Below are positions 1-23,800 of a stretch of 37,993 nucleotides of DNA, piece by piece. The position numbers and the translations under genes were made by a program. Below the pieces are notes generated by a model. It was not told where the DNA came from. It ran no database searches and saw only the letters and a list, made by a program, of their open reading frames with translations. The first letter of the stretch is position 1. Every line of letters begins with the position of its first letter. Origin of the DNA: a virus; IMG/VR virus record IMGVR_UViG_3300048625_000120, positions 1-37,993 of that record; one strand, given 5' to 3'.

Positions 1-21
1 TATCGGGTTCGGTCTTGCCAT

Positions 22-64
22 AGAAAAGCCCCTGGTTACGGTATTTAACTACCGCCCAGGGGCT
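22..64 (-). terminator. Intrinsic terminator after the lipoprotein operon
   Basis: Perfect 9-bp stem (AGCCCCTGG, 27-35, with CCAGGGGCT, 56-64). An inner CGGTA/TACCG stem lies in the loop. On the minus strand the hairpin is followed by TTTTC. It lies just beyond the stop of the lipoprotein gene ending at 80, so it should end minus-strand transcription. Confidence 0.8.
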
Positions 65-79
65 CGTAATCTACAGCGT

Positions 80-12536: not shown

Positions 12537-12892
12537 AAATAAACGAAATTTTAACAGAAGCCCTAGTAGGTGAACTCAACTTTGGTCCATTGAAGATTAT
12601 GGTGGACCAACATACCATTGATAGATCCATTCAACGCTATGTTTCACCTTTTGGTGTAGACCGCGTACTAAAACAACTGCCTAATGTAATCGACGAATTG
12701 CGCGGTGTCGAACCCGGACAACAAGTTTGGGTATACGACCAAGCACAAAACATTGCTTTAGGTATGCGTAGACTTGGTACAGAGCAAAACCTGCGTTTCT
12801 TGTTTAAAACTGTAGTTGGTGATCGTCCCTATGACAGCGACATGCCTGTTATCCTATTAGGCGAGCCTCAAGAAGAGCTAGGCACAGTTTAA
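12533..12892 (+). CDS. Hypothetical protein with capsid-targeting-like leader
   Basis: 119 residues. The opening MKINEILTEALVGEL is strikingly like the previous protein's leader and the T4 internal-protein leader (MKTYQEFIAEA). The rest is a compact mixed domain (MVDQHTIDRSIQRYVSPFGV, GQQVWVYDQ) of no family I recognise. It is translationally coupled to the GGCT-GH19 gene (ATGA overlap) and overlaps the convergent peptidase gene by 4 bp. A likely virion-packaged protein if the leader call is right. Confidence 0.65.
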   Translation: MKINEILTEALVGELNFGPLKIMVDQHTIDRSIQRYVSPFGVDRVLKQLPNVIDELRGVEPGQQVWVYDQAQNIALGMRRLGTEQNLRFLFKTVVGDRPYDSDMPVILLGEPQEELGTV

Positions 12893-13644
12893 TCTACTTG
12901 CTTGTAGATAAACTCAGCTTCGGGTATACGGGTTCTACCGTTCTTACTACCTAACACAACAACGCGGCGCAGGCCGCGTTCTGTTTCTACTGTTAAAATA
13001 ATACATCCACCTGCTGCGTTAGTGGTGCCAGTCTTGCTAACAATGAACTTGTGCTTGTGCCCAATTAGGGGATTGGTTTGTTTAAAGATTAACCAACGCT
13101 TTTTGTTCTTAATTTCCACTTTGGTCTTGGTAGCAGCGTCCACAATAAGATAGTTCTTCTCTGCTACGTTTAATAATAACAGCAAGTCTTCTGCGGTACT
13201 GGTATTGTCTGCTAACAGTCCCGTGGCATCAACATAGTTGGTATGTCGCATACCGTACTTCATAGCGTTAGCATTCATGTCACTAATGCAATTACCGTAT
13301 CCGCCTATATAATGTCTGCATAGCAAGTCTGCTGCGTGGTTGTCGCTTTTGACCATTGCAAGATTGATAAGCTCTTGCCTAGTTAGTCGTAGGGTTTTGT
13401 TGTAAGCTATGGATTGATTTAGATCCTGCTTTGCTTCCATAACGGTTAGCACAGTCATTACCTTAGTAATGCTGGCCATTGGGCGTATGGTGCCAGTGTC
13501 TTTGCTGGCTAGGATTTGGTTTTGTTCGTCTGCAACGAGCCAGGACTTTGCAGTAAGGTCGCTAGTGTCGTCGATAGTTGTGGCAGGTTTCGCCCAGCTA
13601 ATGCTGCTGGCAAGTAATGCCAAAATAAGTATAGTGCTACGCAT
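12889..13644 (-). CDS. PBP7-like D-Ala-D-Ala endopeptidase (S11 family)
   Basis: 251 residues. Signal peptide MRSTILILALLASSISWA. All three serine penicillin-recognising motifs are visible: S58-I-T-K61 (nucleophile), S100-D-N102, and K204-T-G206 in VSKTGTTNAAGG. The size and lack of a C-terminal domain fit the PbpG (PBP7) endopeptidase group, which cuts peptide cross-links in the periplasm. A phage could use it for peptidoglycan remodelling or lysis. The intact motif set argues that it is active. No strong promoter is seen before it. Confidence 0.88.
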   Translation of the reverse strand: MRSTILILALLASSISWAKPATTIDDTSDLTAKSWLVADEQNQILASKDTGTIRPMASITKVMTVLTVMEAKQDLNQSIAYNKTLRLTRQELINLAMVKSDNHAADLLCRHYIGGYGNCISDMNANAMKYGMRHTNYVDATGLLADNTSTAEDLLLLLNVAEKNYLIVDAATKTKVEIKNKKRWLIFKQTNPLIGHKHKFIVSKTGTTNAAGGCIILTVETERGLRRVVVLGSKNGRTRIPEAEFIYKQVD

Positions 13645-16434: not shown

Positions 16435-17572
16435 TTGACTTGCCAACCAAATAGAATTTACTGTAGCAACCGATTAGTCCCTTGGTAAAATCGCCACCGT
16501 TGCACCAGCTGGTCGGGACTTGCTGTGACAAGTCACTTAGACCATTAAGCCATTTTGAGTACGCAGGGATAGCATCGCTTCTAAACCAATATTCGTTTTC
16601 CTGGAACATGGGATTGTACGGTTTCTTTACCTTAAACGCGATATCACCGTTGTGCGGATAGATCAGATCATTAACAATCGAGTAATATTGTTCCGGTACT
16701 AATGCGCCATACTTACTGTGATCAAGTTTATCCCTTAGGTCAGGGTGCATATCAAACCATGCACAGATAACTTGTGCTTGCTTTGCTAGCATTTCGGGTA
16801 AGTCGGGAGTCCAATAAAACAACTCGTCATTTTCCCAATAATGGTCGTTGGTTTGATTGAAGTCTCCTACACTAATGCTTAACTGTATGTCTAAGAAATA
16901 CAAGTAGTAGGCATTATCCTTATAGCAAATGCGTGGCTTGTCAATGCCATGAATAAACCCAACTTTACGACCTTTATCGTATTGTTGTAGATAATTCTTT
17001 GTGGCATTGTGCAGCAAGATATTCTTGGGCATTGACGAGTTATAACGCACACCTGGATTAAAGTCTTCAATCCAATTTGGGTTATTGTAGTAGTCCAGTA
17101 GGTCGTCAGTGTAATCGTACAAGGTTACTTTTGTTCTAGTATCTATGTTCAATTTTTTAAGCATTGGCAACGCCTGGAAATCAATTTCACTACGTAAATT
17201 CCACGCTTCGTCACTATCACTCTTAGTAGACTCAGTGCCTTTAAACGGACCAAAGATCAATATCTCGTCAATGAAGATGTTATTGTCGTGAAATGCACGT
17301 AAGATAGTATAGCTGTCAATGCCTCCGCTGAAGCAGAGCACAAGGTAATCATACTTGTCCCTAAGTTGCTGCGCCCTAATGCGATACAACTCACTTAGTG
17401 AAATATCAACGGGCTTGGTCCAGTTGTAGTTTGAAAAAGCCGACTCGTTAAAATTCCAATGCGGATGGATGCCAGATTTCGAGTGTTCCGAAATGGCATC
17501 AATTTTTCTGTAGAACTTTTTATTTCCTACTTGGTAGAATCCGCGTTTATCGTATTCAATCGAATTTGACAC
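16421..17572 (-). CDS. PP-loop (N-type) ATP pyrophosphatase
   Basis: 383 residues. A clear PP-loop, CFSGGIDSYTIL (80-91), as in asparagine synthetase, NAD synthetase and tRNA/queuosine-type ATP pyrophosphatases. It adenylates a substrate and releases pyrophosphate. No glutaminase domain precedes it, so it would use ammonia or a sulfur/amine donor, or act as an unlinked synthetase domain. It overlaps the TctC gene by 17 nt. The substrate cannot be told from sequence. T4-like phages encode related proteins of unknown role. Confidence 0.75.
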   Translation of the reverse strand: MSNSIEYDKRGFYQVGNKKFYRKIDAISEHSKSGIHPHWNFNESAFSNYNWTKPVDISLSELYRIRAQQLRDKYDYLVLCFSGGIDSYTILRAFHDNNIFIDEILIFGPFKGTESTKSDSDEAWNLRSEIDFQALPMLKKLNIDTRTKVTLYDYTDDLLDYYNNPNWIEDFNPGVRYNSSMPKNILLHNATKNYLQQYDKGRKVGFIHGIDKPRICYKDNAYYLYFLDIQLSISVGDFNQTNDHYWENDELFYWTPDLPEMLAKQAQVICAWFDMHPDLRDKLDHSKYGALVPEQYYSIVNDLIYPHNGDIAFKVKKPYNPMFQENEYWFRSDAIPAYSKWLNGLSDLSQQVPTSWCNGGDFTKGLIGCYSKFYLVGKSIDNL

Positions 17573-18443
17573 GTTGTTTTATTTTCCGAAAGTTTGCTGC
17601 TAGTTCTTCTAGCTGCTTGGGGGCAGTTTTTACTGGACGATGATCAAGTTCTAGTAAACGTTCTGCAACAACTGGTTGTGATACAATTTTTCGGATCTTG
17701 GCTATTACTACAGGATCGGCAGTTTTGTTAGCAATCAATATAGACCAACGTGTGTATCCGTAATCATTAATACCAAGTTCTCGTAATGTTGGTACATCAG
17801 GATTGCCGGCCAGCCGCTGCGGTGACATTACTGCCAGTGCTTTGAGTTTTCCCGATTTGATATATGGATCCACAATCGACTCAGCCTCCATAATGTAATC
17901 GATTTGACCACCGAGTACATCCACTAGAGCTTGTGCTTGACCTTTGTATGGCACGTTAGTAAAAGTACCTTGACCGTTGCCAACAATGGCTCCTGCAATG
18001 TGCGTCCCTGACCCGATGCCACTTGTGCCATAAGTAACAGGCCTAGAGCGTGAAATTTCAATCAGTTGCTTGAGAGTCTTTGCAGGATGGTTATTGCTCA
18101 CCACCAACATAGAAGCTGAATTTCCTAGATGCTTAATGACCACAAAGTCACTAAACTCGTATTCAACATTAGCCTCTCCAATGTTGTCAGTGAGTCCGTT
18201 GCTGGCAATCATAATAACAGTTTCGTTGGTTCTAACCTTAGCAAGATAGTTATATGCAATAAATCCGCCACCACCCAATTTGTATTCTAAGTTGGTTGCA
18301 ACACCGTTTTCTTCTAGTGCAGTTTGCACAGTCCTTGCCACACGATCACTAACGCCACCGGGTTGATACTGAACGATTATCTTAACTGGTTGGGCAAATA
18401 CGGTACTTGCAACCAACATCAATGCTGCTAGAATTAATTTCAT
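17556..18443 (-). CDS. TctC/Bug-type periplasmic solute-binding protein
   Basis: 295 residues. Signal peptide MKLILAALMLVASTVFA. Family signatures in order: YQPGGVSDRVAR (26-37), TSGIGSGTHIAGA, VPYKGQAQALVDVLGGQID, and LKALAVMSPQRLAGNPDVPT. These match tripartite tricarboxylate transporter substrate-binding proteins (Bug family) that capture carboxylates in the periplasm. It is slightly shorter than cellular members (about 320) but appears complete. No TctA/TctB membrane genes lie in the window, so it would need host partners or do something else. It directly abuts the cytidylyltransferase gene. Confidence 0.93.
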   Translation of the reverse strand: MKLILAALMLVASTVFAQPVKIIVQYQPGGVSDRVARTVQTALEENGVATNLEYKLGGGGFIAYNYLAKVRTNETVIMIASNGLTDNIGEANVEYEFSDFVVIKHLGNSASMLVVSNNHPAKTLKQLIEISRSRPVTYGTSGIGSGTHIAGAIVGNGQGTFTNVPYKGQAQALVDVLGGQIDYIMEAESIVDPYIKSGKLKALAVMSPQRLAGNPDVPTLRELGINDYGYTRWSILIANKTADPVVIAKIRKIVSQPVVAERLLELDHRPVKTAPKQLEELAANFRKIKQRVKFD

Positions 18444-18911
18444 TTATTTTGTCTTTTTGGTTTCAGCTTCGGCTACACGCTTGCGTAGACTGCTGCTAGA
18501 GAAACTGTGATCTCTACTGTTGAAGATATGCTTGATACCAATGTGCGAGCCTTCTGCACGACCTGTAAAGTCTTGACTTTCATACTCAACGCCCAAGATG
18601 CGTACATCAATTGGCAATATAAGAATCAAGTCACGTAGGTCTTGTTCAGTTTGATAAACAACAATCTCGTCAACAAAGCGACATGCACTTAGTTGGATTT
18701 GTCGTTCCACTACACTTTGAATAGGCTTGTTTTTGGTATCAGGACGATCGATTGTGGCGTCTGTTTGCAATCCTGCAATTAAGTAATCACAATGGTTCTT
18801 GGCTTCTGCCAACATGGCAATGTGTCCTGCATGTAGCAAGTCAAATTGACTAAAGGTAATGCCAATGACTTTACCTTCGTCTTTGAGTTGTTTAATCTTG
18901 TTAAATATCAT
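18444..18911 (-). CDS. Cytidylyltransferase-like nucleotidyltransferase
   Basis: 155 residues. HxGH motif at 27-30 in FDLLHAGHIAML, and an SSSSLRKRV C-terminal segment equivalent to ISSTxIR. This is the glycerol-3-phosphate/heptose-1-phosphate nucleotidyltransferase fold, which activates a phosphorylated substrate with CTP or ATP. It may prepare a nucleotide-activated sugar or polyol for surface modification. It overlaps the upstream small gene by 11 nt. The substrate is unknown. Confidence 0.85.
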   Translation of the reverse strand: MIFNKIKQLKDEGKVIGITFSQFDLLHAGHIAMLAEAKNHCDYLIAGLQTDATIDRPDTKNKPIQSVVERQIQLSACRFVDEIVVYQTEQDLRDLILILPIDVRILGVEYESQDFTGRAEGSHIGIKHIFNSRDHSFSSSSLRKRVAEAETKKTK

Positions 18912-19161
18912 CGTCGGTAGTTTCCGATAATTCGTCTATACCTTCACCTGTGGTGTGTTGGTATGTTTTGTCTCCTACTACCCATTCGTCAGTCCAAAAG
19001 CGTTGGCTGTTGCTAGATTCCGGTGGCGGAAGTAATGCAAGCATAGTGAATACTTGCTCACGCTCTTCACCTTCTAGAATTCGAGTAGTTTTAAGCAAGC
19101 CGCAACGTTTTAGAAACGCACGGGCTTCCTCTTTGGTCTTGAATTCTTTGGGTTTGATCAT
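18901..19161 (-). CDS. Hypothetical protein between clpS and the nucleotidyltransferase
   Basis: 86 residues. Charged N-terminus (MIKPKEFKTKEEARAFLKRC), a Pro-rich middle (LALLPPPESSN), and an acidic C-terminus (LSETTDDDI). It overlaps clpS by 4 nt (ATGA) and the next gene by 11 nt, so it is part of one operon. No family recognised. Confidence 0.65.
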   Translation of the reverse strand: MIKPKEFKTKEEARAFLKRCGLLKTTRILEGEEREQVFTMLALLPPPESSNSQRFWTDEWVVGDKTYQHTTGEGIDELSETTDDDI

Positions 19162-19469
19162 TGATCTGCTTCAAGTTTGACTTGAAGTGGGAATCCGTTG
19201 TTACGTGCAAGTAGCGTAACTTCGACACCTTTTTGTTCTGCAATCTCGTAGGGCAGAGTTGCAACCACTGCTGATCCTTCTTCGTGGATTCGAAGTGTCA
19301 GTTGCTCGGAGCTGTCATTGTCGTGATTGAAAATAGCCTTGAGCGTCTCAACAACAAATTCCATTGTAGTGGTGTTGTCATTAACGTAAATCACCTTGTA
19401 CAAACTTGGTGGCTTGACATCGAAACGAGGTTGGATTTTAATTTGTTGACGAGTTTTGGTATTTGCCAT
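19158..19469 (-). CDS. clpS: ClpS-like N-degron adaptor
   Basis: 103 residues, matching bacterial ClpS length. Core motif PPSLYKVIYVNDNTTTMEFV (20-39), His62 in RIHEEGSAVV, and EIAEQKG aligned to the family. ClpS binds proteins with bulky N-terminal residues and hands them to ClpA. The pocket residues equivalent to E. coli Asn34 and Asp35 are kept (N30, D31), His66 is kept as H62, but Asp36 is replaced by Asn (N32). That may alter N-degron binding. It is separated from hsp20 by a terminator-like hairpin. Confidence 0.92.
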   Translation of the reverse strand: MANTKTRQQIKIQPRFDVKPPSLYKVIYVNDNTTTMEFVVETLKAIFNHDNDSSEQLTLRIHEEGSAVVATLPYEIAEQKGVEVTLLARNNGFPLQVKLEADQ

Positions 19470-19480
19470 ATTTGAATTAA

Positions 19481-19509
19481 GTTAAACGTAGGGCGTCATT
19501 GCCCTACGT
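19481..19509 (-). terminator. Hairpin terminator after hsp20
   Basis: Perfect 9-bp stem ACGTAGGGC (19486-19494) and GCCCTACGT (19501-19509) with a 6-nt loop, followed on the minus strand by TTTAACTTAATT. It lies between hsp20 and clpS and should end hsp20 transcription. Confidence 0.7.
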
Positions 19510-19522
19510 ATATCACATTATA

Positions 19523-19972
19523 TTACTTTTTGAAAGTAATTGCAATGGATTTTGGTTTCTTTTCTTCCGGAACAACCAGTTCCAGTTGAACAGAAAGGAT
19601 ACCGTTTTCCACAGTGGCGCCGCGTACTTCTACGTTGTCGGCTAACGTAAAGTCACGAACGAAATTGCGGTTACTGATGCCTTGGTGCAGGTACTTTGGA
19701 TCACTTGGTGTAGTAAGATCCTTAACCTTCTCACCAGTTACGGTAAGCACATTGTCTGCTAGTTCTACCCCGATTTCGCTTTCTGCAAAGCCAGCAACTG
19801 CAACTTCGACCACAAAATTGGTTTCGTTAACTTGAACGATATTGTGTGGAGGGTAGTTGCCGCTTTTGCTGTTTGCAAATGTGCGATTCAATTCCTCAAA
19901 CATGCGGTCAAAGCCAATGGCTGAACGATGTAGGGAAGGTAGGTCTAGAGTACGGATGTTGAAAGTTGTCAT
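19523..19972 (-). CDS. Small heat-shock protein (Hsp20/IbpA family)
   Basis: 149 residues. N-terminal LDLPSLHRSAIGFDRMFEEL, an alpha-crystallin domain (EVAVAGFAESEIGVELADN, LTVTGEKV, LADNVEVRGATVENGIL), and an I-x-I tail motif (SIAITFKK). It would hold unfolding proteins in the cytoplasm as oligomers. T4-like cyanophages carry related Hsp20 genes. It is a single gene bounded by two hairpins. The ATG follows an AGGAG-type site (TAGGAGAATAAC). Confidence 0.93.
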   Translation of the reverse strand: MTTFNIRTLDLPSLHRSAIGFDRMFEELNRTFANSKSGNYPPHNIVQVNETNFVVEVAVAGFAESEIGVELADNVLTVTGEKVKDLTTPSDPKYLHQGISNRNFVRDFTLADNVEVRGATVENGILSVQLELVVPEEKKPKSIAITFKK

Positions 19973-20001
19973 GTTATTCTCCTATTAAGCAAGTATGACG
20001 T

Positions 20002-20031
20002 TTAAAATGTAGCCCGATTATCGGCACTACA
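20002..20031 (-). terminator. Terminator of the bS21/ClpX operon
   Basis: Stem TGTAG (20008-20012)/CTACA (20027-20031) with an inner CCGA/TCGG stem, followed on the minus strand by TTTTAAA. It lies beyond the stop at 20042 and before hsp20. Confidence 0.6.
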
Positions 20032-20041
20032 TGTTTATTTA

Positions 20042-20338
20042 TTATACAGACAAAAAGTCTGTAATCAAATTATTTTGGGCATCTACAACTTCGATGCGTT
20101 TTCTGCTGCTGCTGTGGTATTGTGGTTTGTAGGTTAGTAGAAAAAAGCTGATACTTGCTGTGTCTTCTAGTGTGAGGTACAAGTATCGTCCATCGTTTTT
20201 CAGCGTGTACTGTTGCTGATAACGATCTCCCCAACGCTGCATATCCCTTTCGATAAAGGATATTGCAGTTTGGTTAATTCCAACAGGGTTTCCTGGAAAA
20301 ATGGTTTCGTCAGCAGGTAATCGAAACCTAACTTGCAT
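20042..20338 (-). CDS. Hypothetical protein coupled to rpsU
   Basis: 98 residues, start MQVRFRLPADETIFPGNPVG, chosen because the ATG overlaps the bS21 stop (TGATG); the frame runs on upstream inside the bS21 gene. Mixed alpha/beta, with a basic tail region (SSSRKRIEVVD). Not recognised. The position suggests co-translation with bS21. Confidence 0.7.
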   Translation of the reverse strand: MQVRFRLPADETIFPGNPVGINQTAISFIERDMQRWGDRYQQQYTLKNDGRYLYLTLEDTASISFFLLTYKPQYHSSSRKRIEVVDAQNNLITDFLSV

Positions 20339-20571
20339 CAGTAGAGTTTCTTTGGCAAGCTCTCTGCTTGCAGTTTCTTTTGCCAACGTCGCTTGGCTTG
20401 TGCTGCTGCCTTCTTACGCTTGGTAGTTGGCTTTTCGTAAAACTCACGTTCGCGAAGTTCTTGTAACTTGCCGCTTTCCATGATTTTCTTTTTAAATTTG
20501 CGTAGGGCTTTTTCAACGTTGTCATTTTGCACGACTACGCTGCTGCCATATAATTTCATTCTTTCGTTCAT
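20338..20571 (-). CDS. rpsU: Phage ribosomal protein bS21
   Basis: 77 residues, normal bS21 length. The sequence VEKALRKFKKKIMESGKLQE followed by REREFYEKPTTKRKKAAAQ is the bS21 core; FYEKPTxxRK is the family hallmark. A basic C-terminus ends KKLY. bS21 sits on the 30S platform near the anti-Shine-Dalgarno end of 16S rRNA and affects initiation. Phage copies are thought to replace the host protein. AGGAT precedes the ATG; an internal ATG four codons on is an alternative. It is coupled to the gene downstream and lies 7 nt after clpX. Confidence 0.95.
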   Translation of the reverse strand: MNERMKLYGSSVVVQNDNVEKALRKFKKKIMESGKLQELREREFYEKPTTKRKKAAAQAKRRWQKKLQAESLPKKLY

Positions 20572-20578
20572 TTTTATC

Positions 20579-21781
20579 CTATTCTATAAAATTGGGTGGG
20601 TCGTTATATTTAACTACTTTGTCTGTAATCTCTATCTTTTTAAAACCCTGCTTTTTAATTTCAGTTAGGGTGTACATGTATGGAGTAAGAGTGCGCTCTA
20701 AAATGCTCTTTAGCCCACGTGCTCCAACCTTTTGATTGAATGCCAACTCTGCTACTGCTTCAATGGCTGCGTCAGTGAACAGCAACTCTACTTCATCCGA
20801 GGAGAAGTAAAACTTCATCTGTGCCAACAGGTTGTTCTTTGGTTCCGTTAAGATCTTGACAAAGTCGCTTTTGCTTAGTTCATCAATTTGTACAGAGATT
20901 GGGAAACGTCCTGTGAATTCTGGAATCATTCCAAACTTTTGGAAATCGTCTGGGGTAACTTCTGTAACATCAATTTTGTCATCATTACTTGAGTTAAACC
21001 CAATGCTGGTGCCGCGTTGTCTACGGTCAACAATCTTGGGTAGATTGGCAAATGCTCCACCAGCAATAAACAAGATCTTGCTGGTATCAATTTCCACTTG
21101 GTCCATTGATGGATGCTTCTTGCCGCCGTTTACACTGACCTTGCACTTGGTGCCTTCTACTAACTTGAGTAGAGCCTGTTGCACACCCTCTCCGCTAACG
21201 TCACGGGTAATGCTGGCGCCTTCGCTTTTACGTGCAATCTTGTCTACTTCGTCCAGGAAGATAATACCTTGCTCACAACGGGCAACATCGTATTCTGCTG
21301 CTGCCAACAATCCTGAGATGATGCTTTCCACATCGTCGCCTACGTAACCAGCTTCGGTCAGTGTAGTTGCATCAGCTACAACAAAGGGAACGTTTAGGTA
21401 ACGTGCAATGGTTTTGGCCAACAGTGTTTTACCTGAGCCAGTTGGGCCGTGAATTAGAATGTTTGACTTTTCCAGCTCCACTGCACTTTCAAAGAAGATG
21501 CGCTTGTAATGGTTAACCACGCCCACGCTGATTGCAATCTTTGCAGCATCTTGGCCAATAATGTACTCGTCCAAGTGCTGCTTGATCTTAATAGGATCTA
21601 GGGCCTTGCCAATTTTCTTGTCCTTGCGGATATGGTCGTTGGCTTCTTTGTTAATGATGTTGCTACAAAGCGTGATACATTCATTACAAATGCCAGCATC
21701 GTTTGCTACAATTAACTTTTCAACTTCATTACGGCTTTTGCCGCAGAAGTTACAATGGATCGGTTGAATGTTTTCGCTCAT
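20579..21781 (-). CDS. clpX: ClpX-like AAA+ unfoldase
   Basis: 400 residues (E. coli ClpX has 424). N-terminal zinc domain with Cys10, 13, 32, 35. Walker A GPTGSGKT (112-119), pore loop GYVG (145-148), Walker B IIFLDE (173-178). The small domain contains QKVGARGLKSILERTLTPYM. The ClpP-docking tripeptide IGF is kept at 260-262 (GTSIGFNSS), so it could dock on host ClpP; no clpP gene is in this window. It would unfold and thread substrates, possibly redirecting host proteolysis. The start overlaps the upstream gene by 32 nt. Confidence 0.96.
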   Translation of the reverse strand: MSENIQPIHCNFCGKSRNEVEKLIVANDAGICNECITLCSNIINKEANDHIRKDKKIGKALDPIKIKQHLDEYIIGQDAAKIAISVGVVNHYKRIFFESAVELEKSNILIHGPTGSGKTLLAKTIARYLNVPFVVADATTLTEAGYVGDDVESIISGLLAAAEYDVARCEQGIIFLDEVDKIARKSEGASITRDVSGEGVQQALLKLVEGTKCKVSVNGGKKHPSMDQVEIDTSKILFIAGGAFANLPKIVDRRQRGTSIGFNSSNDDKIDVTEVTPDDFQKFGMIPEFTGRFPISVQIDELSKSDFVKILTEPKNNLLAQMKFYFSSDEVELLFTDAAIEAVAELAFNQKVGARGLKSILERTLTPYMYTLTEIKKQGFKKIEITDKVVKYNDPPNFIE

Positions 21782-22130
21782 GGGCTCTATTGATAAAATA
21801 TTCTAATACGTTAGTGTATTTACGATCATTATTAAGAAAGTTCTTTGGCCCGTAATGGTATGTTTTTTCTGACCCAACGAATAGGTCTTTAATTGGACTT
21901 AGATCAGTGTTGGCAGTGTTTACTACGATTGCATCAACTTGTCCAGCTGCTTTAGTAAGCCAGTTAACGTCATCTAACTCTGCACTATAGAGGTACACGT
22001 TAAATGGTTCATCGTGTCCTGCACATAAAAATGCCAGCGTCTCGACGTCAACTGGATCGACATCAATCAACAAGATTGAATGATTGGGGTCTTCCACAAA
22101 GTCTGGTGGAGTAATAAAATTGGTTGTCAT
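21750..22130 (-). CDS. Hypothetical protein upstream of clpX
   Basis: 126 residues. SILLIDVDPVDVETLAFLCA looks like a receiver or Rossmann-type beta-alpha unit, and GQVDAIVVNTAN a second strand. A receiver-like fold is only suggested; the usual conserved Asp/Lys set is not clearly seen. It overlaps clpX by 32 nt and shares ATGA with the membrane-protein gene, so it is in one operon with both. Function unknown. Confidence 0.65.
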   Translation of the reverse strand: MTTNFITPPDFVEDPNHSILLIDVDPVDVETLAFLCAGHDEPFNVYLYSAELDDVNWLTKAAGQVDAIVVNTANTDLSPIKDLFVGSEKTYHYGPKNFLNNDRKYTNVLEYFINRAHERKHSTDPL

Positions 22131-23800
22131 TGTTTCTTTAGATATTCGCGAATTTGCTCTTGTTCGCTTTCGCTTAGTGTGTCAACATCATACTCGCCGC
22201 TGTTGATTTTATCAATTAGGTACTTGATGTATTCTTCATTGTAAGTGTAGCTATCAGTTGCTGCTTTGTCAACTTCAATCCATTTAACGCCATTAAACTT
22301 AAACAGTCTAGCTGGCAAGAAGTCTACACGCAAATACATGTCACCTTTGGTTGCAGATTCTGGAAACTTAGTTCCGAAGTCTGCATTAGCTGCTTTAGCA
22401 CGATCTATATTGTCTGCGTGTGCATCTAGGTCTGGTACCCATGAATGACTAAGAGTCTTGATGCGAGTATTTGGATCAATGTGTTCTTCGACTATTTCTT
22501 TCATTGGACCAGTGTACTCAGGAGGAGTAATGTAGTCACCTGGGCGTTCAATTTCGTCAATGCCTAGTGCCAGTATCTCTGGTGAAGATCGCTGAGTGCC
22601 TACCTCAGGCTCAATGGCTGTGTCATCTTCGGGTTCTCTGGCATCTGCTGCTGCTTTAAACGCTTCTACGGATTTGATAAGTTGTGCCACTTGTTCTTCA
22701 CTTAGTGGTCCATCATCCTCTTCGTAAGCTGGTGCCATTACTTCCTCTTCAGTTAGAGGGCGGGTGTTGTCTTCTTCATCAACAACTTCACGCTTATACA
22801 CCATTGGCGGCAAGTTTGAAAAATGCACAAATGGTTTCTTTAGATAAGCAAACAGATCCACATCCTCCGCAGTGGTAGACTCAGTAGAGACACTCTGAGC
22901 TGTGTGCTCAGCATCGACTACCGCGCATTCGTCTACTACGGTCTGTTCTTCTACAGGAGGTGTGGATTCGTGTGGTTCTCCAACCGTGTTATTGTCAACA
23001 ACAGTCTGCGTATGTTTGTTCACCTCGACAGGTGTTTGTTCCTCCCCACGTGCCCACTTAATGCTTTGCTGCGCTGCTAAAATCAACACCAGTGCCAGTG
23101 GATCAAATACTGCAACAATCAACATGATAACCAAACGCACTGCTTTTTCAAGTATGTTGGCATCAGGATTGTCACCGTAGATCAATGCTGCAATGTATTT
23201 GATTGGACCGACCTCATTTTCAATGCGCCGGAATTCAGCAGCGTAAGGAGCTCGCTCCTCGGATAATGCGGCCACCTTCTTTTGCTCAACTTCAATCTCT
23301 GCCAGAAGTCTAGTTCGTTCCTTAGATTGGCTTCTTCGAATACTAACTGCTTTGTCAGCACCCTTTTCATCATTGCTTCGGCCCATAACTTGATCAACGG
23401 CTGCATCCATTTGCTTGAGTGCAGTTCGGTTAGTATCAATGTTATCTTTTGCAGTCTTAATTTTCTCATCGTATATTGCTACCTTGGCCATTGAATCACC
23501 GGATACTAGGCTCTGATCACTGTGTGCTTTTGACAGATATCCGAAACACCCGAGGCTAGTTAACACCATAAGGAAAGCTACAGCCGGGACCAAGTATAAT
23601 TTATATGGCCACGAAGCCCGATCCCAATTTAATTTCAACCAAACTGCTGCGGTTAGCTTGCCTACACCCAAGGCGGCCCCCATAATAACCACTGGCCAAA
23701 ACGCCGCAGAAAAAATAGCTGTCAACCCAATGATGCTATAATACTCGGCTATTGCACTAATAACCAACGCCACAAACAGTGTAAAATACCCGTATATCAT
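22127..23800 (-). CDS. Large membrane protein with coiled coil and acidic domain
   Basis: 557 residues. Three hydrophobic helices lie in the first 90 residues (FTLFVALVISAIAEYYS, ILGL-like and PVVIMGAALGVG segments, LVPAVAFLMVLTSLGCF). A charged helical stretch (110-200) and a fourth hydrophobic segment (LVIMLIVAVFDPLALVLIL) follow, then a long acidic disordered region rich in Glu/Asp/Pro/Thr. A short ordered C-terminus ends the protein (DMYLRVDFLPARLFKFNGVK, then ESEQEQIREYLKKQ). Probably an inner-membrane protein with a cytoplasmic tail. Function unknown. Confidence 0.7.
   Translation of the reverse strand: MIYGYFTLFVALVISAIAEYYSIIGLTAIFSAAFWPVVIMGAALGVGKLTAAVWLKLNWDRASWPYKLYLVPAVAFLMVLTSLGCFGYLSKAHSDQSLVSGDSMAKVAIYDEKIKTAKDNIDTNRTALKQMDAAVDQVMGRSNDEKGADKAVSIRRSQSKERTRLLAEIEVEQKKVAALSEERAPYAAEFRRIENEVGPIKYIAALIYGDNPDANILEKAVRLVIMLIVAVFDPLALVLILAAQQSIKWARGEEQTPVEVNKHTQTVVDNNTVGEPHESTPPVEEQTVVDECAVVDAEHTAQSVSTESTTAEDVDLFAYLKKPFVHFSNLPPMVYKREVVDEEDNTRPLTEEEVMAPAYEEDDGPLSEEQVAQLIKSVEAFKAAADAREPEDDTAIEPEVGTQRSSPEILALGIDEIERPGDYITPPEYTGPMKEIVEEHIDPNTRIKTLSHSWVPDLDAHADNIDRAKAANADFGTKFPESATKGDMYLRVDFLPARLFKFNGVKWIEVDKAATDSYTYNEEYIKYLIDKINSGEYDVDTLSESEQEQIREYLKKQ

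Follow-up and report, generated by a model that had tools for sequence, protein, structure and literature searches.

A virus that encodes both the unfoldase ClpX and the adaptor ClpS raises the question of which peptidase these proteins serve, that of the host or one of the virus itself. The question is posed here by the IMG/VR virus record IMGVR_UViG_3300048625_000120, a linear viral record of 37,993 bp that was analysed over its whole length (the window) and is a fragment of a larger genome. Genes for ClpS, the small heat-shock protein Hsp20, ribosomal protein bS21 and ClpX lie close together on its minus strand, and no clpP is present. From this absence, a preliminary description had suggested that the phage could commandeer host ClpP. 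The absence is real, but in a linear fragment of this size it says little, and the collinear relatives of the window carry clpP, with its catalytic triad intact, as well as clpA. Our analysis points with good confidence to a jumbo phage that brings its own ClpXP/ClpAP-ClpS system together with Hsp20 and bS21. What stands of the earlier view is a conserved protein-turnover and translation set; what finds no support is the use of host ClpP that was drawn from the missing gene.

The four genes were confirmed by family searches at the positions and on the strand first described. The clpX gene (20579–21781, minus strand, as are all genes of the cluster) encodes 400 amino acids that match the Pfam families zf-C4_ClpX (PF06689, E = 1.3e-12) and AAA_2 (E = 3.9e-30), and its scores of 522.5 and 484.4 exceed the two NCBIfam ClpX equivalog cut-offs of 359 and 370.75, respectively. 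The motifs previously listed for it were all recovered, namely the four cysteines of a C4 zinc finger, the Walker A (GPTGSGKT) and Walker B motifs, the pore-1 loop GYVG and the docking loop IGF at residues 260–262. Pore-1 Y/V and pore-2 T/V are kept, and the RKH loop of E. coli reads KKH; in E. coli ClpX, the ssrA tag has been shown to be bound by these pore-1, pore-2 and RKH loop positions (PMC7652416). The docking loop is IGF or MGF in every phage ClpX inspected. Ribosomal protein bS21 (rpsU, 20338–20571, 77 amino acids) begins 7 nt after clpX and passes the cut-offs of both Pfam (Ribosomal_S21, PF01165, E = 7.2e-17) and TIGR00030. The hsp20 gene (19523–19972, 149 amino acids) encodes an IbpA-like small heat-shock protein whose Pfam domain (PF00011, E = 1.7e-19) scores 70.3 bits against a cut-off of 20.8. 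The clpS gene (19158–19469, 103 amino acids) matches PF02617 (E = 7.7e-26), and its product is divergent, at 80 bits against an NCBIfam equivalog cut-off of 143. Its residues N30, D31, T34, M36 and H62 correspond to N34, D35, T38, M40 and H66 of E. coli ClpS, which we take to form the N-degron pocket, and E75 and K80 correspond to E79 and K84, presumably the ClpA-docking residues. The Pfam match and these residues place the protein in the wider ClpS family. It also carries PP at residues 20–21, at the position of the proline junction described for ClpS (PMC9663308).

The surroundings of the window can be read from its relatives. The nearest ClpX proteins (96% identity) are encoded on contigs G001, G002 and G003, of 240, 354 and 321 kb, with which the window is collinear across its full length, small gaps excepted, mostly at 85–90% DNA identity; bS21 is 100% identical to that of G001 and G003. 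The window appears to be a piece of a jumbo phage genome, with relatives of up to 354 kb. No sequenced phage record matched it at the DNA level. Base 1 of the window aligns to G001:108681, G002:189903 and G003:172274, and the 53 bases at its left end are identical in the three contigs; an exact search with this end, aimed at extending the window's own contig, retrieved G001, G002 and G003 alone. The preliminary description had proposed a search for clpP elsewhere in the genome, and one ClpP gene was found in each of the three contigs. In G001, the ClpP domain starts at position 109243, which is 562 bp beyond aligned base 1, and the offset is equal in G002 and G003; between the edge and clpP lies a gene for a 164-residue HExxH protein. 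The left edge of the fragment (1–79, minus strand) would therefore stop one gene short of a clpP located outside the window, and the missing clpP is most simply a truncation artefact, because collinear relatives carry the gene just past this edge. The more distant contig G004 also has clpP.

The ClpP of G001 consists of 207 amino acids, with the triad S99/H124/D185 and most of the unfoldase-binding cleft positions conserved, and it aligns to solved ClpP with an E value of 4e-60. The handle region is lengthened by about 10–12 residues inserted after the active-site His. Its AlphaFold2 model has a mean predicted local distance difference test (pLDDT) score of 83.7, with residues 128–142 poorly defined. 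The structures that it matches best are experimentally solved ClpP chains, some of them from ClpXP complexes (template modelling scores of 0.84–0.85). A second, divergent ClpP-like protein of about 190–200 amino acids, in which Ser, His and Asp are apparently kept, is encoded within a few kb of clpP in G007 and G009 (L084 1657–2232; L085 1295–1900) and alone near the contig end in G018 (L083 1519–2097); it is absent from G001–G003.

PHROGs and RefSeq label this type of ClpP 'head maturation protease', which opens a real, though rather unlikely, alternative in which ClpP matures the virion and ClpX, ClpA and Hsp20 are assembly chaperones, so that the purpose of the set would be to build capsids and tails, not to turn proteins over. 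The weak virion-protein match of the upstream open reading frame (ORF) ORF557 fits this view, as does the late expression of bS21 with structural genes reported by Chen et al. 2022 (PMC9723584). In addition, the record of Pseudomonas phage vB_PaeM_PA5oct (PA5oct) flags its ClpP as detected by mass spectrometry, but the same flag stands on enzymes such as ribonucleotide reductase. ClpP is nearer to the canonical housekeeping models (239 and 225 bits) than to the head-maturation model NF045542 (74 bits); it keeps the unfoldase-docking clefts, and it is accompanied by two unfoldases and the ClpS adaptor.

The second unfoldase is a ClpA-sized protein found in G001–G003, G007 and G014. In G001–G003 it has 763 amino acids, and the G001 copy aligns with E. 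coli ClpA end to end (611 bits, E = 2e-182), above ClpB and ClpC. The N-domain, two AAA modules, the Walker motifs and both pore-1 loops are present, and IGF at 610–612 replaces IGL. Co-occurrence was counted in a panel of contigs above 200 kb that were picked through ClpX, ClpA or ClpP, and the counts are not frequencies among phages. ClpX, ClpA, ClpP and ClpS occur together in nine of the ten ClpX-positive contigs (G001, G002, G003, G007, G014, G024, G025, G028 and G029), and G021, G022, G026 and G030 have ClpA, ClpP and ClpS and no ClpX zinc finger.

These contigs bear directly on the model in which phage ClpX, and also ClpS, works on the ClpP and ClpA of the host. The tenth ClpX-positive contig, G013 (309 kb), carries ClpX without ClpP, ClpA or ClpS, and phage ClpX can therefore exist alone; the window ClpX keeps IGF and all pore-loop residues, which makes docking on the ClpP of the host plausible on chemical grounds; and Iyer et al. 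2021 (PMC7824862) propose that phage ClpS feeds host ClpAP. Set against this, the collinear relatives have their own clpP and clpA, as do nine of the ten large ClpX-positive contigs. We consider commandeering improbable, and a weaker alternative than virion assembly, although mixed complexes with host ClpP are possible alongside phage ones.

The preferred reading, an own Clp system of the phage, would operate as follows. ClpX, encoded in the window, and ClpA, encoded elsewhere in the relatives, would dock through their IGF loops on the phage ClpP encoded past the left end. ClpS would pass proteins with N-terminal Leu, Phe, Tyr or Trp to ClpA, probably that of the phage, either alone or in addition to that of the host. 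Hsp20 would act as a holdase chaperone for unfolding proteins, and bS21 would join the host ribosome. The virus would then probably need no borrowed ClpP, and the most likely use of the set would be to keep quality control and selective degradation in its own hands through a long, heavy expression programme; the system may also clear away proteins of the host or early proteins of the phage, and defence proteins or stalled products are further candidate substrates. Post-translational takeover, as first suggested, would be one of several candidate roles, beside quality control and assembly. The sequences show that the genes are present, in this order and with their key residues, that they are under purifying selection and that they occur together in relatives; that the phage proteins assemble with each other, and on which substrates and when they act, is inferred.

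Several points weigh against this reading. The clpP and clpA genes of the window's own genome would be known through relatives alone, and G001 and G002 are indistinguishable in the region, which leaves about two independent collinear witnesses. Phage ClpP (238.7 of 249 and 225 of 308.6 bits), ClpA (814 of 993 bits), ClpS and Hsp20 (138.5 of 212 bits for IbpA) all fall under the NCBIfam cut-offs; they are therefore divergent, and their activity is not assured. Nothing in these sequences indicates that phage ClpX would prefer phage over host ClpP, and G013 shows the gene standing by itself. The reading shifts from a hijack of host ClpP to a phage probably equipped with two unfoldases, a peptidase and an N-degron adaptor; if the system is active, this would be a virus with an independent system of regulated proteolysis. 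The case also illustrates how a gene missing from a fragment can mislead.

The genes of the window are under strong purifying selection. In comparisons with relatives at about 87% DNA identity, omega is about 0.03 for ClpX and 0.02 for both bS21 and ClpS (range 0.02–0.04 for the three), and 0.05–0.17 for Hsp20. Of 40 viral loci with ClpX relatives, 27 keep the order clpX, hsp20, clpS, even where ClpX identity has fallen to 45%, and chance therefore does not account for the cluster. bS21 was detected in 12 of the 40, and Pfam did not find it in G007, G014 and G025. All families of the cluster are ordinary bacterial ones, as would be expected of passive cargo newly acquired from a host; the order kept over 27 loci, the sharing of the block with cultured Pseudomonas phages and the omega of 0.02–0.04 for three genes make such an origin highly improbable. 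Among the ClpX matches, a high-scoring one assigned to 'Acinetobacter phage MD-2021a' (L089) was set aside as a piece of host chromosome (tig-clpP-clpX, leuA, metX). Host contamination may likewise explain several Listeria, Staphylococcus and Enterococcus 'phage' records that carry clpX, clpP and clpA (matches such as H7–H16 and H88–H98).

About 9 kb beyond clpP, G001–G003 encode a permuted transfer-messenger RNA (tmRNA) of betaproteobacterial type (G001:118603–119001, L277; G002:179583–179981, L278; G003:180876–181270, L274), which scores 110–116 bits with RF01850 against a gathering score of 84 and would sit about 10 kb past the left end of the window. This type is no more than a hint at the host; a host call from bS21 was dropped, with best matches of 45–50%, mostly gammaproteobacterial. 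tmRNAs are found in about 2% of phage genomes (PMC9004378), and phage examples include those of Bacillus phage G and mycobacteriophages (PMC4131195). A more restricted form of the own-system reading, which we regard as tentative, is that the set is mainly a stress and quality-control kit for starved or slow hosts, in which the phage tmRNA would tag stalled products for phage ClpXP. A permuted tmRNA above the cut-off occurs in 12 of the 13 records above 200 kb that have both ClpP and ClpS, but these records share ancestry and the association is not independent. Paride, a relative of PA5oct with ClpP, ClpA and ClpS, replicates on dormant P. aeruginosa (PMC10761892), though that paper makes no mention of Clp; SmpB has no credible match in G002, and the 40 kb of PA5oct that were searched yielded no tmRNA.

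The encoded tags are ANDSQFLMVA and ANDEQFLMVA in the window clade and end in ALAA in G004, G021, G022, G024, G025, G027 and G028; two members of the window clade differ by a silent change inside the LMVA codons. It is conceivable, and in our view improbable, that the LMVA tag is read better by phage ClpX, ClpA or ClpP than by their host counterparts, which would give a private trans-translation loop that separates the two turnover systems. A simple co-change of tag and ClpX was rejected, as KKH occurs in the window clade, with LMVA, but also in the G004 clade, with ALAA. The ARAGORN tags of G030, G026 and G007 (L271, L280 and L281) are unusually long, at 26–29 residues, and end in AVAA, AVLA or SLAV; they may reflect mis-set coding parts or real long tags. 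A lone tRNA with a CTA anticodon, possibly a UAG suppressor, lies a few kb from the tmRNA in G002 (about 174.4 kb; L067 392–466) and in G004 (L279 3071–3145). G002 also holds a GOLLD RNA (RF02032, 196 bits) at about 281.4–281.9 kb (L265 7440–7905), within an array of 48 tRNAs spanning about 23 kb.

In the window, the four genes form part of an operon-like row of minus-strand genes that overlap or lie close together, in the order ORF557, ORF126, clpX, rpsU, a 114-residue ORF, hsp20, clpS, ORF86 and a nucleotidyltransferase gene; scans for promoters and terminators gave no clear excess over shuffled sequence. ORF557 (22127–23800, 557 amino acids) has a hydrophobic N-terminus, owes its weak virion structural protein match to PHROGs, and precedes clpX in most relatives, including those with ClpX identity as low as 45%. 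ORF126 (21750–22130, 126 amino acids) overlaps the clpX start and is kept upstream in near relatives. The 114-residue ORF (20042–20386), which the preliminary description had passed over, has a TTG start that overlaps the bS21 gene, and it belongs to no family; the start of ORF86 (18901–19161, 86 amino acids), which is kept in near relatives, overlaps the clpS stop. Further along the window are a TctC-type solute-binding protein with an apparent signal peptide and no adjoining transporter (17556–18443) and a strongly conserved D-alanyl-D-alanine carboxypeptidase (Peptidase_S11, 12889–13644, omega 0.03–0.04).

A Clp gene set of this type is already known from a few cultured giant phages, PA5oct and Atu_ph07 among them. 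Agrobacterium phage Atu_ph07 was reported in 2018 with ClpX, ClpA, ClpB, ClpP and ClpS (PMC6102473), and Iyer et al. 2021 (PMC7824862) list ClpP, ClpS, ClpA, ClpX and Hsp20 in jumbo phages. Sinorhizobium phage Phosso is a jumbo phage with ClpX, ClpA, ClpP, ClpS, S21 and a small heat-shock protein, and Sinorhizobium phage AP-J-162 (PMC11242549) has several Clp genes, S21, a small heat-shock protein and tmRNA. In contrast to the window, the Clp genes of Atu_ph07, AP-J-162 and Phosso are scattered; in Phosso, some 15 kb separate clpX from clpS and the gene for the small heat-shock protein. The neighbourhood analysis in Chen et al. 2022 (PMC9723584) counts Hsp20 (n = 127) and ATP-dependent Clp genes (n = 50 and 47) within ten genes of bS21 in 900 published phages. 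The five clades of freshwater bS21 phages described there carry bS21 on the strand opposite the capsid genes and have Bacteroidetes as their predicted hosts, whereas bS21 of the window stands in line with clpX and hsp20. The passages on these genes in PMC7824862, PMC6102473 and PMC9723584 contain no activity test of phage Clp proteins.

The closest arrangement is that of PA5oct (Arenbergviridae, Wroclawvirus), which reads clpX-S21-gp227-queD-hsp20-clpS, followed by clpP and clpA, on one strand. Its gp227 is a small ORF located where the window has the 114-residue ORF, a likeness of position and not of demonstrated sequence similarity, and the ClpP of its group (with the relatives Callisto, MIJ3 and Paride) is 60% identical to that of G001. 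PA5oct differs in sequence (ClpX 41%, ClpS 39% and Hsp20 26% identity to the window), in the inserted queD and in FtsH after the block. RefSeq names its ClpX and ClpA 'porphyrin biosynthesis' (L250 9743–10969 and 33624–35843) and its ClpP 'head maturation protease', apparently transferred PHROG labels. The gene block also occurs in cultured Pseudomonas phages, which makes the proposal directly testable. Compared with ClpXP and ClpAP-ClpS of E. coli, the phage proteins are 43–53% identical over the aligned parts, ClpP has the handle insertion and clpX does not lie beside clpP, whereas the two sets share those residues that were compared in the catalytic site, the docking loop and the adaptor.

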